IMG/VR virus record: IMGVR_UViG_3300042988_000307
Coordinates: 1-21,812 of that record
Source of the DNA: a virus
Strand: one strand, 5' to 3'
Length of the DNA: 21,812 nt
Shown one piece after another: positions 3,924 to 17,553 of this stretch (position 1 is the stretch's first letter; each line of letters begins with the position of its first letter). The notes under the pieces were generated by a model, which saw nothing but the letters and a program-made list of their open reading frames with translations, was not told the DNA's origin and did no database searches. A program made the translations under genes and the position numbers.

Positions 3924-3946
3924 GACGTTTTAAGCGACATTTTAAG
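3924..3946 (+). repeat. Two 11-bp direct repeats upstream of a promoter
   Basis: GACGTTTTAAG (3924-3934) and GACATTTTAAG (3936-3946) differ at one base and are spaced by 12 bp. They abut the -35 element at 3947, the place where an activator would bind. Confidence 0.6.
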
Positions 3947-3975
3947 TTAGACGTAAATTTATATTACTTTATAAT
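3947..3975 (+). promoter_or_regulatory. Sigma-A-type promoter candidate with upstream repeats
   Basis: TTAGAC (3947-3952), 17 bp and TATAAT (3970-3975). The consensus -10 with a poor -35 and abutting direct repeats suggests an activator-dependent promoter. It would drive the operon 4043-4979 that ends with the probable late regulator. Confidence 0.55.
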
Positions 3976-4042
3976 AAAAATTGAATGTACCCACCAAAGA
4001 ATTAATAATTTGCGGTTTTAAATTGAAGGGAGAATATGAGAT

Positions 4043-4309
4043 ATGAAAAATACACAAGAATTTTTAAATAAAGCTAAGTTGTATAAAGTAGAAATGTATA
4101 TATTGGACATTGATAATCATTATGGTATCTTAGAACATATAATAGAACATATCAATGACAGGTTAGAAAATGTTAGTTTACATGCTTATAACATTCATAC
4201 TGTTGAGTTTGAATGGTGTGATGAGCATATTTTGAATTATAGTACTTGTAAATATGAGGATTATAAAGGGATGTTTGGATTGAAGAGAGAATATGAAAAT
4301 GGATATTAA
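4043..4309 (+). CDS. Hypothetical protein, first gene of the regulator operon
   Basis: An 88-residue acidic protein with many His, Tyr and Glu residues (for example YILDIDNHYGILEHIIEHINDRLENVSLHAYNIH, described here in part). It does not match a family I know. The ATG at 4043 has AAGGGAGA at 4025-4032. It follows the promoter at 3947-3975 and overlaps the next gene by 17 bp, so it is the first cistron of an operon leading to the late-regulator candidate. Confidence 0.65.
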   Translation: MKNTQEFLNKAKLYKVEMYILDIDNHYGILEHIIEHINDRLENVSLHAYNIHTVEFEWCDEHILNYSTCKYEDYKGMFGLKREYENGY

Positions 4310-4436
4310 AAAAATAGTAGCATCTGCAATATTTGAAAATTGTGAAATATCTGAAATTGATTATGAATTTTACTTAAAAGATTTAAAAATGGATTATTTG
4401 CAGGAGATTTATGCTCAAAGTGGGAGGTTAAAATGA
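4293..4436 (+). CDS. Small hypothetical protein
   Basis: A 47-residue ORF, MKMDIKKIVASAIFENCEIS..., predicted mixed helix. It starts in the tail of the previous gene with GAAGAGAG (4282-4289) as ribosome site and ends with ATGA (4433-4436), shared with the next start. No motif is recognised. The four-base overlap argues for coupled translation. Confidence 0.55.
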   Translation: MKMDIKKIVASAIFENCEISEIDYEFYLKDLKMDYLQEIYAQSGRLK

Positions 4437-4516
4437 ATATAAAAATAACTTGGGAAGGTTTAATTTTTGGCATATTAATTAATATAATTATATTTCTAAT
4501 ATTAGATAAATCTTGA
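4433..4516 (+). CDS. 27-residue single-pass membrane microprotein
   Basis: MNIKITWEGLIFGILINIII... is one hydrophobic segment of about 18 residues with a short charged tail (LDKS). The ribosome site GGGAGG lies at 4422-4427 and the ATGA overlap couples it to the previous gene. Tiny membrane peptides of this kind are common in phages and usually uncharacterised; a holin is unlikely at this size and place. Confidence 0.5.
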   Translation: MNIKITWEGLIFGILINIIIFLILDKS

Positions 4517-4532
4517 AAATGGAGGTTAAACC

Positions 4533-4979
4533 ATGGATAAATCCGATTTCCAAACAATTAGAAGATTTCTAGAGGAAGAATTAAGCAATTATAAACGTAT
4601 GCAAGGAATTGTAAAGGGTGTTGACATTGAAGGTATAGGAGTACAAGCTCAGGTTTTGTCGGGTATGCCTCACAGTGTTACAAATAAGTTCAGTTCGGTT
4701 GTTGAAGTCCAAGCGTTCGACAGAAAAGAACTAAAGGAACTAAAAAAAGATATAAACAGAATTAAAAACTGTTTATCAATCTTGAAGCAAGATATACTTT
4801 TGTTTACAGTAACAGAATTAATCATAAATGGTAATACATTACAATATACAATAAAAAAATATAAACAAATAACAGGTGAATATTACAGCGAAGGCTACTT
4901 TAAAGATAAAAGAAAAAAAGCTTTGAACGAAATGACCAAACACTTGATTGATATTAAGTTTCGGGTTAGACCCTCTTAG
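4533..4979 (+). CDS. Probable late transcription regulator (RinA/ArpU-like position and architecture)
   Basis: A 148-residue protein. The N-terminal half is polar. A helical segment (RKELKELKKDINRIKNCLSIL) is followed by a C-terminal part (TVTELIINGNTLQYTIKKYKQITGEYYSEGYFKDKRKKALNEM) whose layout matches a sigma-region-4-like helix-turn-helix, with the final 'YFKDKRKKAL' as recognition helix. Genes of this size at the end of the early block, just before the terminase, are typically RinA/ArpU-type activators of late transcription in Gram-positive phages. The match is structural and positional, not a firm family hit. The ATG at 4533 has TGGAGGT at 4520-4526. The stop codon lies in the loop of a terminator. 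Confidence 0.55.
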   Translation: MDKSDFQTIRRFLEEELSNYKRMQGIVKGVDIEGIGVQAQVLSGMPHSVTNKFSSVVEVQAFDRKELKELKKDINRIKNCLSILKQDILLFTVTELIINGNTLQYTIKKYKQITGEYYSEGYFKDKRKKALNEMTKHLIDIKFRVRPS

Positions 4980-4992
4980 GAGGGTTTTTTTG
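4970..4992 (+). terminator. Rho-independent terminator of the regulator operon
   Basis: ACCCTC (4970-4975), loop TTAG, GAGGGT (4980-4985), then seven T. The loop contains the TAG of the upstream gene, so gene end and terminator coincide. Confidence 0.9.
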
Positions 4993-4993
4993 T

Positions 4994-5032
4994 GCAATAA
5001 GTTCAGGCAATAAGTTCAGGCAATAAGTTCAG
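4994..5032 (+). repeat. Three perfect 13-bp tandem direct repeats (iteron-like)
   Basis: GCAATAAGTTCAG occurs three times head to tail immediately after the terminator T-run. The unit is non-palindromic and noncoding. It could be a regulator binding array or part of an origin, since very AT-rich DNA follows. Confidence 0.9.
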
Positions 5033-5218
5033 TGTGGTCGACATAAAAAATAGTAAAAATGTAAATAAAATAGTAAAAATAAACATATTTAAATAACATA
5101 ATATCATATATTTTTTATATTGTCAACTATGTTTTAAAATGGCTTTATTACTATATTTCAATGTTTTAAAAATAATTTATTCTAATAAATATAAATTAAA
5201 AAATAAATTTTAAAAAAA
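5033..5218. other. AT-rich noncoding stretch with direct repeats
   Basis: No gene is visible. AAAATAGTAAAAAT occurs perfectly at 5047-5060 and 5067-5080 (20-bp period). The remainder is A/T runs. The 3' end (5191-5226) is nearly identical to 6172-6206, the stretch before the promoter of another gene in this island. I see no convincing sigma-A promoter here. Confidence 0.7.
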
Positions 5219-6906: not shown

Positions 6907-6978
6907 GTCTAAAAATTGGTGCTGAAATATGTCTACATTTTCATTTTTTTATATGCTATTATTATATTATACAAAAAT

Positions 6979-7010
6979 AACCCTTTGATTTTTTCAGGGG
7001 TTTTATTTTA
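6979..7010 (+). terminator. Terminator-like hairpin before the late operon
   Basis: AACCC (6979-6983) pairs with GGGTT (6998-7002), extendable by one T-G pair, followed by a T-rich tract. It sits 23 bp before the TM2 gene, in the gap 6907-7032 where a late promoter would be expected. I see no clear promoter there, so the hairpin may act in antitermination or just block read-through. Confidence 0.45.
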
Positions 7011-7032
7011 TTTTATTTTGGAGGTTGAGAAG

Positions 7033-7239
7033 ATGAAAAGTAAAATAACGGCTGGATTATTAGCATTATTTTTAGGCGGTTTAGGAATACATAAATTTTA
7101 TTTAGGTCGTGGCGGTGCAGGATTTTTATATTTGATTTTTTGTTGGACTTTAGTTCCTGCCGTGATTGCTTTTTTTGATGCTATATTTTTATTTTTGATG
7201 GATGATGTGATTTTTAATGCGAAATATAACAGGGTGTAA
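7033..7239 (+). CDS. TM2-domain membrane protein
   Basis: 68 residues with the TM2 signature: a first helix ([14 protein letters not shown]), the polar HKFYLGR turn, and a second membrane span ending with [17 protein letters not shown]2 proteins are small two-helix membrane proteins of unclear function, found in bacteria and as cargo genes in mobile elements. I chose the ATG at 7033 because TTGGAGG (7018-7024) precedes it and the domain begins at once; the longer frame from 6916 runs across a terminator hairpin. It precedes terS, so it is either the first late gene or a moron. Confidence 0.85.
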
Positions 7240-11955: not shown

Positions 11956-12843
11956 ATGGCAAATTCAATAACATACGCAGTAAAATATCTAAATATGTTA
12001 GATAGAATTTACAAAGCTAATTCAGTTACATCAATACTTGAAGCGGATACAAGTAAATATAAATTTTCAAGTGTTCAAGAAAACGAAATAAAAATAAGAA
12101 AGTTAGCATTGCAAGGACTAGGCTCTTACAGTAGAGCAAGCGGTTACGATTCAGGCGATGCTACTGTAACATGGGAAACTCACACTTTTGCGGTCGATAG
12201 GTCAAAGAAGTTCAACCTTGACGCTATGGATTCGGCAGAAGCTTATCAAACCATTGCAGAATTAGCGGCTGAATTTGAAAGAACAAAAGTTGCTCCTGAA
12301 ATTGATGCTTACAGATTTGAAAAAATGTGTACTTTATGCGGACTTGATGTTAGTGAAAATTTGACAGACGATACAGCAATTGCGGCAATTGATACAGGTA
12401 TTCAAACTTTGAATGATGCAGAAGTTCCAGTCGAAGGCAGAGTTTTATTTGTGTCAAATAGCATGTATACTTTGATGAAACAGTCAGGCGAACATGTTAA
12501 TGTTAGAATGTCACAGCAAAACAATGCAGTTATTAACAGAAATATCGAAATATTTGATGATATGCCAATCGTGAAAGTTCCTGCTGCAAGATTTTATAAC
12601 AACTTTGATTTTGCTTCAAGCGGTGCGGGTGGATTTACTCCTGCCGCAGGCTCAAAAGCAATCAACTTTATGATAGTTCCAACGCAAGAAATCATTGCAG
12701 TTAAAAAGCACGTTGCTCCAAAGATTATAACTCCTGAATTAAATCAATCTTATGATGGTTGGATATTTGCATACAGAATTTACCATGATTTATTCATAGC
12801 AGAAAACAGACTTGACGGAACTTACATACATACAGTTGTATAA
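11956..12843 (+). CDS. Major capsid protein
   Basis: 295 residues following the scaffold gene. Recognisable segments are MANSITYAVKYLNMLDRIY, the GYDSGDATVTWETHTFAVDRSKKFNLDAMD strand-helix block near 62-92, a middle domain with VEGRVLFVSN, and the C-terminal VPTQEIIAVKKHV...DGWIFAYRIYHDLFI block typical of this family of clostridial-phage HK97-fold capsids. GGAGG at 11942-11946. Position, size and the strong ribosome site all fit the most abundant virion protein. Confidence 0.88.
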   Translation: MANSITYAVKYLNMLDRIYKANSVTSILEADTSKYKFSSVQENEIKIRKLALQGLGSYSRASGYDSGDATVTWETHTFAVDRSKKFNLDAMDSAEAYQTIAELAAEFERTKVAPEIDAYRFEKMCTLCGLDVSENLTDDTAIAAIDTGIQTLNDAEVPVEGRVLFVSNSMYTLMKQSGEHVNVRMSQQNNAVINRNIEIFDDMPIVKVPAARFYNNFDFASSGAGGFTPAAGSKAINFMIVPTQEIIAVKKHVAPKIITPELNQSYDGWIFAYRIYHDLFIAENRLDGTYIHTVV

Positions 12844-12899: not shown

Positions 12900-13589
12900 A
12901 TGGCTAATACATTAAAAGGTAAACTAGATAGTATCGGTGACGGTTTATCTAGTATTTCAAGCATATCAAGTGTACTTGGTAGTGGTGCGACTGCTTTATC
13001 AGGTTTGACAAGCTCGGCTGATGTAATTAATTCAGCTGCAAGTATTATAGAAAGTACAGCTGCACTTATTGATGATGTATCAGTACAAGTCGATAGCGTT
13101 GGAACTCTTACAACAAGCAAAACAGGTAGCGTTGCGACATTAGTAACGAGTGTTGGAACGCTTACTTCAAGCGTAGGAACTCAAGCAGGAAGTGTTGGAA
13201 CTCTTGTTTCAACGGCATCTAGTAAGGTTGATTCTCAAGGTTTGTTAGTAGCAAGCGTTGGAACTTTGCAAAGTGCTATTGATTCAAAAATTGATAGTGT
13301 TGGCGTTAAAAGTTCAAGCGTTGGAACACTAACAACTAGCGTTGGAACACAAGCATCAACATTAATAACAACTACAGTTCCATCAGTAGGTACACAAATC
13401 GGAAGTGTTGGAACTCAAGCCAGTACACTTATAGCAACTACAGTTCCAAGCGTTGGTACGTTAGTCGGAAGTGTTGGAACATTAAACAGTACAGCAATAG
13501 TAAAAATTGATAGTACAGCATCAAGAATTGAATCAGCCCTCACAAGTATAATGTCGAAACTTGAAGTAATTGACGGTCAAGTCACATAA
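12900..13589 (+). CDS. Ser/Thr-rich SVGT-repeat protein, probable head fibre or stalk
   Basis: 229 residues, of which I count about 81 Ser or Thr. The middle and C-terminal parts contain 11 exact SVGT motifs, often spaced by seven (S-V-G-T-L/Q-x-x), putting Val and Leu at heptad a/d positions. This suggests a thin trimeric rod of unusual composition. Near the end a 22-residue block is present twice (SVGTQASTLI-TTTVP). The strong GGAGG (12886-12890) and place directly after the capsid gene suggest an abundant head component, comparable in position to head fibres of other Gram-positive phages. The Ser/Thr density makes it a good candidate substrate of the glycosyltransferase two genes downstream. 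No family is recognised. Confidence 0.7.
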   Translation: MANTLKGKLDSIGDGLSSISSISSVLGSGATALSGLTSSADVINSAASIIESTAALIDDVSVQVDSVGTLTTSKTGSVATLVTSVGTLTSSVGTQAGSVGTLVSTASSKVDSQGLLVASVGTLQSAIDSKIDSVGVKSSSVGTLTTSVGTQASTLITTTVPSVGTQIGSVGTQASTLIATTVPSVGTLVGSVGTLNSTAIVKIDSTASRIESALTSIMSKLEVIDGQVT

Positions 13590-13601
13590 TAGAGGTATGA
13601 A

Positions 13602-14090
13602 ATGGGTATATACAACAGAGTTGATGATTTAGAAACATTTGTAGGTATTAGATCAGATATGGCAAATGATGAAACATTATTAGGATATCTTAATTCCTTA
13701 TATCAGCATGTACATAATCAAGCCAAAGTATATCCAACTTTGGCTGATGGTATATTGGTACAAGGTGGAAGTGGTGCGTGGCAGTTAGGAAATTTTGTTC
13801 AAATTATTCCTGCAAATCAAATAACGACTCCTTTTGATATACATTACATCAACTTTGAGGGTGCAAGTGCAACAGACACATATGAATTTGTATTGTATAA
13901 AGGTTTGTTAGGTGAGGAAATAGAAATAGGAAGAATAAGGACTGACAGAGAATCAGCAACGAGTGGAATTACAAACGTACCGATTCAAATTCCTGCACAA
14001 CTTGAAAATACTAGAATAAGTTGTAAATTAGCAAGTAAATCAGGCAATGATAATGTTACAGTATCGGTTTATTATCATATTTACGTTTAA
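13602..14090 (+). CDS. Probable head decoration or fibre-tip protein
   Basis: 162 residues. A helical N-terminal part (YNRVDDLETFVGIRSDMANDETLL) precedes a beta-rich domain (residues about 60-162) with YEFVLYKGLLGEEIEIGRIRTDR and a final CKLASKSG...VTVSVYYHIYV strand pair. I recall this type of beta domain in proteins encoded next to capsid genes of Firmicutes phages, plausibly a jelly-roll decoration. It lies in the same reading frame as the SVGT protein, separated by consecutive TAA and TAG stops and its own ribosome site (AGAGGT, 13591-13596), so the two may be stalk and tip of one structure. Confidence 0.65.
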   Translation: MGIYNRVDDLETFVGIRSDMANDETLLGYLNSLYQHVHNQAKVYPTLADGILVQGGSGAWQLGNFVQIIPANQITTPFDIHYINFEGASATDTYEFVLYKGLLGEEIEIGRIRTDRESATSGITNVPIQIPAQLENTRISCKLASKSGNDNVTVSVYYHIYV

Positions 14091-14114
14091 ATTATAAAAC
14101 GAGGAGGTTATTAC

Positions 14115-15158
14115 ATGATAATTTGTCACATTGCCCCATTTGCACCTAATAGGTGTGGGCTTTATGAAGCCAGTCGAGATATGGCAAGGGCTGACATAGT
14201 CGGTAATAACCAAATTATTTTTATTGATGCAGGGATAACCATTAATGGGGTTCGAGAAGAGCCAGTAATTGGTGGTGTTGATGATAGAGCAGGGTTTAAG
14301 TTGGTAACGGCTGACCCTACTCTTATCAATATTGCTGATATAATAGTTTTACATACAGGTGTTCCTGACAATTGGCTAGTAAAATGTCAAGCTCCGATTA
14401 TTTGGGTAATTCATGGCAGACCTTTAGCCTGTTTTCGTCCAGAACTTCAAAACAAAACAAATTCTTACAGCTTATATCAAAATATCGCACAATGGCAACG
14501 TTCAAAAAAAATGGTTCATTTTTGGGAAGAACATATTCCTCATTGGGACATATTTATTCCTCAAGAAAAACAATATTGTTTTGACTATCCTGTTATTGAT
14601 GAAAATAGATTTAATAGTAACGGTCAAACTCACACATTGACAAATAAAGGAAAATATAACATCCTTATTTGTGATAGTAGCAGAGAAGATATTGACCTTT
14701 ACGAACTTGTAATCGGTTGCATTGAAGCCGTCAAGGTTATTCCAGATTTAAAGTTTCATTTTTATGGTTTTGACTTTCCCATTCCGAATTGTTGGAATAT
14801 CGTGCTAGGTAAACTCAAAGAATTAGGTGGTTTGGGTGATGTATCAGGCAGAGTTGGGAACATGGAACTTGTATATCGGTCATGCGATTGCTTAATAAGT
14901 CCAAACAGAATTATAACAAGAACAATAGCAGAAGCATTGAGTTGTGGGATACCTGTTATTTCTGAATTAGGTTGTAAAGTTGCAGATTATACATGTAACA
15001 TGGCAAACACAAAAGACGTAGTTGAGGCTATACAATTATTTGTGAATGATTTTGACAATAATAGACACAAAGACGGAGTTCTTGAAAGAGCAAAACTTTT
15101 CAATATGAAAAATTATTCTCAAAAAATGAATAAGATTTATGAAGAGGTGTTAAAATGA
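14115..15158 (+). CDS. GT-B (GT4-like) glycosyltransferase inside the head operon
   Basis: 347 residues with the two-domain GT-B look: an N-terminal IAPFAPNRCGLYEASRDMA block with the early glycine loop, and a C-terminal domain with ILICDSSREDIDLYELVIG, KFHFYGFD and the signature ISPNRIITRTIAEALSCGIPVIS (261-283). The second Glu of the GT4 EX7E motif is present (E273); an Arg stands where the first Glu would be. GT4 enzymes move sugars from nucleotide donors to acceptors. It sits between the decoration gene and the head-tail connector (ATGA overlap), with GGAGG at 14102-14106, so it is expressed with virion genes. Glycosylation of the neighbouring Ser/Thr-rich protein is the obvious inference. 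Confidence 0.85.
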   Translation: MIICHIAPFAPNRCGLYEASRDMARADIVGNNQIIFIDAGITINGVREEPVIGGVDDRAGFKLVTADPTLINIADIIVLHTGVPDNWLVKCQAPIIWVIHGRPLACFRPELQNKTNSYSLYQNIAQWQRSKKMVHFWEEHIPHWDIFIPQEKQYCFDYPVIDENRFNSNGQTHTLTNKGKYNILICDSSREDIDLYELVIGCIEAVKVIPDLKFHFYGFDFPIPNCWNIVLGKLKELGGLGDVSGRVGNMELVYRSCDCLISPNRIITRTIAEALSCGIPVISELGCKVADYTCNMANTKDVVEAIQLFVNDFDNNRHKDGVLERAKLFNMKNYSQKMNKIYEEVLK

Positions 15159-15709
15159 TTGCAACATTGACAGAAATTAAGGAACTATTGAAAATAACAA
15201 ATACTACAAATGATACTATGATTGATGCTCTCATTCTAATTATTCAGGATGATATTTTATCATTTTTGCGGAATAAGTTTTTGACTGAAATAGAAATTCA
15301 AGAAAATACAATTAGTTTTACCGGTAATTCGATTTTAGATTCCGGCAGTGGTTTTGTCAATGCAGGGTTTGTAGTTGGTGATATAGTAGTTCAAGATAGC
15401 AAATTAAACAATAATTTTTATACAGTTACAAACGTTACAGCAGGAACATTGACGGTAAGTGAATTACTATACATCGAAACAGCAGAAAACACAATAAAAA
15501 TAAATCAAGTGATATTTCCCTCTTCATTAAAATTAATAATGGCAAACATGATAGGTTTCACTATGAATAATAAGCATGGCGTAAAGTCGGAAACATTCTC
15601 AAGGTATAGTGTAAATTATGGAAGTGACATATCAAGTCTTATAAATGGTTATCCTGATACAATTACAAGACCACTTTTGAAATATAGGAAGGTGTATAAT
15701 GATTACTGA
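15155..15709 (+). CDS. Head-tail connector (gp6/gp15 adaptor-like) with an inserted beta domain
   Basis: 184 residues. The start (TLTEIKELLKITNTTNDTMIDALILIIQDDILSFLRN) and the end (IFPSSLKLIMANMIGFTM...SRYSVNYGSDISSLINGYPDTI) are the two halves of the helical connector that docks under the portal. Between them, about residues 45-115, lies a beta-rich insert (SGFVNAGFVVGDIVVQDS, NNFYTVTNVTAGTLTVS) of a type I recall as a module in phage virion proteins. The plain family is about 100 residues, so the length reflects the insert. Start by ATGA overlap with the glycosyltransferase. Confidence 0.8.
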   Translation: MIATLTEIKELLKITNTTNDTMIDALILIIQDDILSFLRNKFLTEIEIQENTISFTGNSILDSGSGFVNAGFVVGDIVVQDSKLNNNFYTVTNVTAGTLTVSELLYIETAENTIKINQVIFPSSLKLIMANMIGFTMNNKHGVKSETFSRYSVNYGSDISSLINGYPDTITRPLLKYRKVYNDY

Positions 15710-16731: not shown

Positions 16732-17553
16732 ATGAATGCAGTTACAACAGCACAAATAAACAATATTATGTTAGATACTGGAGTTGTCTATATAGACTAT
16801 GGACAAGTCGGAGAAAGGGTACTTGCACCAACCAGAGGCGGTTCAAATTTCACGGTTGAGCAGGATGTTCGAGAAATTGAAAGGGATGGAGCATTAGGTA
16901 AAGAAAAAGGATTGAGAAGAGTTATAAAAGAAAACGCAATGTTAACAGTCAAATTTATGGACATGTCAGTTGCTAATCTTAATATGATGTTAAGAGGTTC
17001 AACGTTAAACAGCGTGACAATTTCTAGTACTGAAACAGGAACAATTGCATCAAGTGAGTATTTTACAAATGTTACTTGGATTGGTACAGATATGGAAGGC
17101 AAAAACAAGGTTATAACGTTGTTTAATGCTATGTCTGATAACGGCTTAAAAGCTGATTTTACCGACAAAGACGAATCAGTTTTAGAGGTTGTATTTTCGG
17201 CACATCGTGACCCAACGGATTCCACTCCTGCATGTTACACAATAGTTGAAGTTGAAGACCCAAGTCCAGATTTGACAGGGTTATCAGTTACAACGGCAAC
17301 TTTATCTCCTGCATTTGTTGGCACTACTTATGAGTATGTTTCAACAGTTGTAAATGGTACAACAAGTGTAACAGTTACTCCTACTTGTGCAACGGCTGAT
17401 AGCATAACTGTAAACGGAACTACAGTTGTAACGGCACAAGCATCAGGAAATATTGCACTTGCAACGGGTGTTAACGTAATAACAGTTAGAACGCTCAAAG
17501 CAGGCAAAACAACAACTACATACACAATTAGAATATCAAGAGCAAGCTCATAA
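16732..17553 (+). CDS. Major tail (tube) protein with C-terminal cadherin-like beta-sandwich
   Basis: 273 residues. Residues 1-175 form the tube domain (LDTGVVYIDYGQVGERVLAPTRGG, then EIERDGALGKEKGLRR). Residues about 182-273 are a separate Thr/Val-rich module (LTGLSVTTATLSPAF...YEYVSTV, ending TTTTYTIRISRAS) matching the cadherin-like beta-sandwich domain found in surface proteins. It would project from each tail ring and could bind carbohydrate or stabilise the particle. GGAGG at 16721-16725 is strong, as expected for an abundant protein. Confidence 0.85.
   Translation: MNAVTTAQINNIMLDTGVVYIDYGQVGERVLAPTRGGSNFTVEQDVREIERDGALGKEKGLRRVIKENAMLTVKFMDMSVANLNMMLRGSTLNSVTISSTETGTIASSEYFTNVTWIGTDMEGKNKVITLFNAMSDNGLKADFTDKDESVLEVVFSAHRDPTDSTPACYTIVEVEDPSPDLTGLSVTTATLSPAFVGTTYEYVSTVVNGTTSVTVTPTCATADSITVNGTTVVTAQASGNIALATGVNVITVRTLKAGKTTTTYTIRISRASS

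Follow-up and report, generated by a model that had tools for sequence, protein, structure and literature searches.

A glycosyltransferase paired with a Ser/Thr-repeat stalk protein: a candidate virion glycosylation cassette in phage head operons

The window analyzed here, a 21.8-kb virus record, comes from an uncultured tailed phage and is possibly a fragment. Its late genes run in the order terminase, portal, minor head protein, scaffold and capsid, followed by three open reading frames at 12900–13589 (229 aa), 13602–14090 (162 aa) and 14115–15158 (347 aa), exactly as a sequence-only reading of this DNA had delimited them. The connector, head-completion genes, a tail protein and the tape measure come next. 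That reading had also placed a glycosyltransferase (GT) gene between capsid-associated genes and the connector, with which it shares an ATGA, and both coordinates and sequence agree. The same 4-base overlap of the GT and connector genes is found in L001, L016 and L058; these and the other L-numbered loci used for comparison are metagenomic fragments. An AGGAGG lies upstream of both the 12900 and the 14115 genes. The relevant features are as follows.

11956..12843, + strand: major capsid protein, upstream of the cassette (phrog_422 major head protein, E 9.5e-77)
12900..13589, + strand: SVGT stalk protein of 229 aa, presumed glycan acceptor and fibre (35% Ser+Thr; family alignment)
13095..13481, + strand: stretch with all 11 SVGT motifs (residues 66–194, from motif positions)
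13602..14090, + strand: 162-aa protein, candidate tip or accessory protein (from gene order; not obligate)
14115..15158, + strand: GT-B, GT4-like glycosyltransferase of 347 aa (structural model; BshA Z 27.6; weak PF13692)
15155..15158, + strand: ATGA in which the GT stop codon overlaps the connector's start codon (sequence and coordinates)
15155..15709, + strand: head–tail connector (PF05135, phrog_1236)
16732..17553, + strand: major tail protein with C-terminal cadherin-like domain, an alternative acceptor in the sequence-only reading (PF12733, phrog_885)

Elsewhere on the + strand, the window encodes a G39P-type helicase loader/inhibitor (364–918, PF11417), an ERCC4-like nuclease just under the Pfam cut-off (1063–1671), a 190-aa Mom-family protein (1672–2244, PF25680, E 9.5e-36), which modifies DNA in the manner of Mom from phage Mu, and a TM2-domain membrane protein just upstream of the terminase genes (6916–7239, PF05154).

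The product of the 12900 gene had been described as Ser/Thr-rich with 11 SVGT motifs. Ser and Thr indeed make up 81 of its 229 residues (35%), and exactly 11 motifs are present, whereas 2000 shuffled sequences contain 0.1 on average and never more than 2. No other gene product of the window is as Ser/Thr-rich; the tail protein comes second at 24%. The presumed repeat fibre would contain few charged residues. The family alignment reveals a conserved N-terminus, TLKGKLDSIGxGLS, and an often conserved C-terminus, SKLEVID, which reads IMSKLEVIDGQV in the window; the repeat region between these termini varies in length among family members. Hydrophobic residues in the stalks recur with a period of 3.5 residues, which beats all shuffles in most members, and a heptad register, as in a trimeric coiled-coil phage fibre, fits the repeats with z values of 3.7–17.8. 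Ser and Thr occupy 58–66% of heptad positions c and f, compared to 35–38% in shuffles. When the heptads were scored blind to Ser and Thr, these residues still made up 58% of position c and 63% of position f, versus about 35% in shuffles. If the repeat region is a coiled coil, its hydroxyls would point outward at regular intervals, like the rungs of a ladder. In AlphaFold, the model of the stalk monomer contains an N-terminal helix at a pLDDT of about 75 and a weakly supported C-terminal helix; the repeats are assigned as strand-like at a pLDDT of 30–45, and the model is too poor for a fold search.

Several relatives depart from the stalk of the window. The Ser/Thr content drops to as little as 22% in the stalks of L022 and L024. 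In L020 a C-terminal domain is fused to the stalk, and the repeats of L036 are flanked by a beta-helix-like part on one side and a C-terminal domain on the other; both architectures fit a stalk-and-tip layout. In L058, two extra short Ser/Thr-repeat proteins (3932–4861) precede the main stalk gene, one of them with a C-terminal non-repeat domain.

The enzyme encoded at 14115–15158 scores 21.7 bits against PF13692, below the gathering cut-off of 27, which is why we call it GT4-like rather than filing it as a GT4 member; 14 of 22 GT relatives match this family at E 0.001 or better. A model computed from 22 sequences predicts a compact, two-domain protein with high confidence (pLDDT 93.2, pTM 0.90). 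Its fold neighbours (Foldseek, VIA-align) are GT4-type GT-B enzymes, with Z scores of 22–27 over about 300 residues, so that the GT4-like assignment proposed from the letters alone is supported at the level of the predicted fold. BshA matches with a Z score of 27.6 (320 residues, 3.0 Å), followed by MshA (26.6), HepE (26.0) and PglA (25). PimA, TarM and WaaG are also among the structural matches, and the Ser-repeat glycosyltransferases SdgB and GtfA are present in the Foldseek list. Among the residues invariant in all 22 sequences are GLYE at positions 15–18, His80, His100, Arg190, Arg269 and Glu273, a conservation that argues for a working enzyme. Glu273 is the second glutamate of the EX7E motif; the first position is Arg, Lys or another residue, with a shortened loop. 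Because this first glutamate is absent, the donor chemistry of the enzyme is not to be assumed. None of the 22 GTs has a Pfam match to the DUF1975 insertion or any match in PHROG, and no NCBIfam model matches the stalk, 162-aa or GT protein of the window. A GT with 63% identity is encoded at 1–1044 of L044, a contig of 5.5 kb assigned to a Calditrichaeota MAG; the contig may come from a phage and have been binned either together with its host or by mistake.

When just the GT or just the capsid protein served as query, searches for close relatives returned L001 only, and profile searches were therefore used. The stalk search yielded L001 and ten more contigs, the GT profile 30 loci and the stalk profile 21 loci. 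Removing near-duplicates at 90% identity left a non-redundant set of 22 GTs. A search for co-occurrence of GT and SVGT-like genes, which the earlier reading had proposed as a check, places a gene of the stalk family at most three genes upstream in 20 of these 22, a count to be read with the bias toward pairing of a GT profile first built from stalk-linked GTs. Homologous GTs therefore do not consistently occur without a Ser/Thr-rich neighbour. The two exceptions are L042, where a 155-aa Ser/Ala repeat lies directly upstream of the GT instead, and L041, whose GT is without any Ser-rich neighbour. Outside the first stalk search, a stalk gene is present in 16 of 19 GT contigs with upstream DNA, and the GT lies downstream in all four new stalk contigs that have downstream DNA. 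Every SVGT-family gene with enough downstream DNA is followed by a GT; the contigs of L006, L060 and L061 stop short of where a GT would lie.

None of 271 other ORFs of at least 150 aa in these loci reaches 28% Ser+Thr. A DNA-pattern scan of viral contigs for VGT at 7-residue spacing returned mostly unrelated repeats without this GT: among 44 such ORFs, a GT resembling GT alignment A4, the only kind scored, was found solely in two copies of an already known locus. In PMBT5, RG-TP1 and BUCT702, the annotated isolates examined among the nearest capsid relatives, the pair is absent between capsid and connector. INPHARED phages gave no match to the GT, tip or stalk of the window, nor to the divergent GTs of L008 and L042, and no match was found in plasmids.

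Because the pair persists in about 20 distinct phages, some with unrelated capsids, the GT most likely coats a fibre-like protein with sugars. We consider it probable that it decorates the stalk's exposed Ser and Thr residues inside the host cytoplasm, either ahead of head assembly or in the course of it, to give a glycan-coated fibre. The proposed unit would be a two-gene virion glycosylation cassette within the head operon, comprising a heptad-repeat stalk and a dedicated, soluble GT4-like enzyme. The stalk is probably a head fibre that would be held by its conserved N-terminus. The GT, presumably translated together with the structural proteins, would use a nucleotide-sugar of the host to glycosylate Ser/Thr hydroxyls at fixed, outward-facing stalk positions, and an optional beta-rich protein or a fused domain would form the tip of the fibre.

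The sequence-only reading had named the stalk, the tip or the tail module as possible acceptors. The linkage in 20 of 22 GTs favours the stalk, whereas the other two candidates are absent from many GT-bearing relatives. The gene for the 162-aa tip is missing from L001 and most relatives, and its product aligns weakly with those of genes at the equivalent place in L016, L004 and L020. Its supposed jelly-roll nature found no confirmation: the protein matches nothing in Pfam, PHROG or NCBIfam, and nothing meaningful among PDB sequences. The Thr-rich, cadherin-like tail extension occurs in the window, L001 and L016; the tail proteins of other relatives are without it or carry different terminal domains. 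This rules out both the tip and the tail-tube domain as obligate acceptors. That one of them, or the capsid protein, is nevertheless the acceptor, and that the stalk lies nearby through operon order, is unlikely. Such a reading can draw on the Thr-rich domain of the window's tail protein and on mycobacteriophages of the Che8 type (Freeman et al. 2023), for which PMC12619734 describes glycans on capsid and tail-tube C-termini. Against it are L036 and L038–L040, which have the pair but encode no homologue of the capsid protein found in the window.

The adjacency of GT and stalk could also be the inherited gene order of one phage lineage, without a functional link. Capsid, portal and connector families are common to most loci, and distances among GTs and among stalk N-termini are uncorrelated (rho 0.09), so that no co-evolution is seen; both points are in line with this explanation. 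However, the genes upstream of the stalk and downstream of the GT vary while the pair itself is kept, and GT distances do not track those of the portal (rho −0.03), whereas portal and scaffold distances do correlate (0.83). The pairing also recurs in other backbones, with GTs of 23–36% identity. L036 combines a GT with 36% identity, a protease-type capsid region and an SVGT stalk; L038–L040 encode GTs with 23–24% identity and an 886–890-aa SVGT/VDSK protein near a tail-fibre gene; and the GT of L042 (25% identity) is paired with its Ser/Ala repeat. Given the protease-type capsid region of L036 and the tail-fibre gene near the pair in L038–L040, the pair is not tied to one backbone, and we regard mere inheritance of gene order as quite improbable. 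As the stalks are of low complexity, homology between those of the other backbones and those of the main clade is not proven; if the pairing arose by convergence, the case for a functional link would be strengthened.

A role in altering the host cell surface, through modification of a receptor or modification of the O-antigen or teichoic-acid type, for example to limit superinfection, would agree with a fold common to the cell-envelope enzymes TarM, WaaG and PimA. Phage GTs that modify the host surface do exist, as noted in PMC12619734. The GT nevertheless lies between capsid and connector genes, overlaps a structural gene translationally and is linked to a stalk gene rather than to a flippase or anchor gene, which makes this role very unlikely. 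Sugar modification of phage DNA, for which the T4-type alpha-glucosyltransferase of the same fold (1y8z, Z 22.4) offers a precedent, is hardly credible given that the GT adjoins the stalk gene in a structural operon, that no hydroxymethyl-pyrimidine gene is among the genes scanned in this incomplete fragment and that a Mom-family DNA-modification protein is already encoded on it.

If the GT does glycosylate the stalk, the nearest systems in working principle would, by analogy, be the Ser-rich-repeat adhesins of bacteria and their GT-B enzymes. SdgA/SdgB and GtfA/GtfB, which contain an inserted DUF1975, glycosylate Ser-rich repeat surface adhesins of Gram-positive bacteria (PMC8561734). The phage system likewise consists of a GT-B enzyme and a Ser-rich repeat partner, here encoded beside the GT (20/22), but the phage GT is compact (347 aa) with no DUF1975 found, and the partner is a phage stalk. 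BshA, MshA, HepE and PglA represent the closest solved folds, yet they share only 11–16% identity with the phage GT and act on small-molecule or lipid-linked acceptors, and the phage GT is without the first glutamate of EX7E. In phage head fibres of the phi29 gp8.5 type, a fibre-like gene adjoins the capsid gene. The stalk gene is also found beside the capsid gene, but there is no sequence match, and the stalk's putative head location derives from gene order only.

To our knowledge, few cases of phage virion glycosylation have been described, mostly in mycobacteriophages. In phage Maravista, PMC11256854 locates the GT genes close to the genome's 3′ end. The mycobacteriophage system and the present one are alike in that phage-encoded GTs are thought to modify virion proteins; they differ in that the window's GT lies inside the head operon and is paired with a Ser/Thr-repeat protein. 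The papers and databases searched contained no example of a dedicated enzyme paired with a repeat fibre within the head operon of a phage, and a literature search combining capsid fibre, GT and head operon returned nothing.

A broader reading, which we advance tentatively and as falling a little short of an even call, is that the heptad Ser/Thr-ladder stalk and its own compact GT constitute a mobile glycofibre cassette that provides several unrelated uncultured phage groups with sugar-coated fibres of adjustable length. Possible benefits include fibre solubility, protease protection, surface or lectin binding and tuning of adsorption; antibody masking, raised by the earlier reading, would be a purpose argued by analogy. 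Together, the enzyme and the probable acceptor make up a small gene pair that is recognizable by sequence, recurrent across backbones and missing from the INPHARED isolates. Two small genes thereby make it directly testable which virion protein a phage GT modifies, and they suggest that in uncultured phages sugar-coated fibres go under-recorded.

Two loci show further peculiarities near the head genes. In L024, a CBM96 protein (4599–5144; PF24517, E 3.8e-15) is encoded directly upstream of the stalk, and the same gene family is present in L030; its position next to the stalk suggests that these head operons may also hold sugar-binding parts. In L034 (3366–5100), a 185-aa ORF splits the capsid gene into two pieces; the beginning of this ORF, EIWKDIKDFEGCYQVSNLGRIKSL, is similar to HNH homing endonucleases, and an intron may be present.
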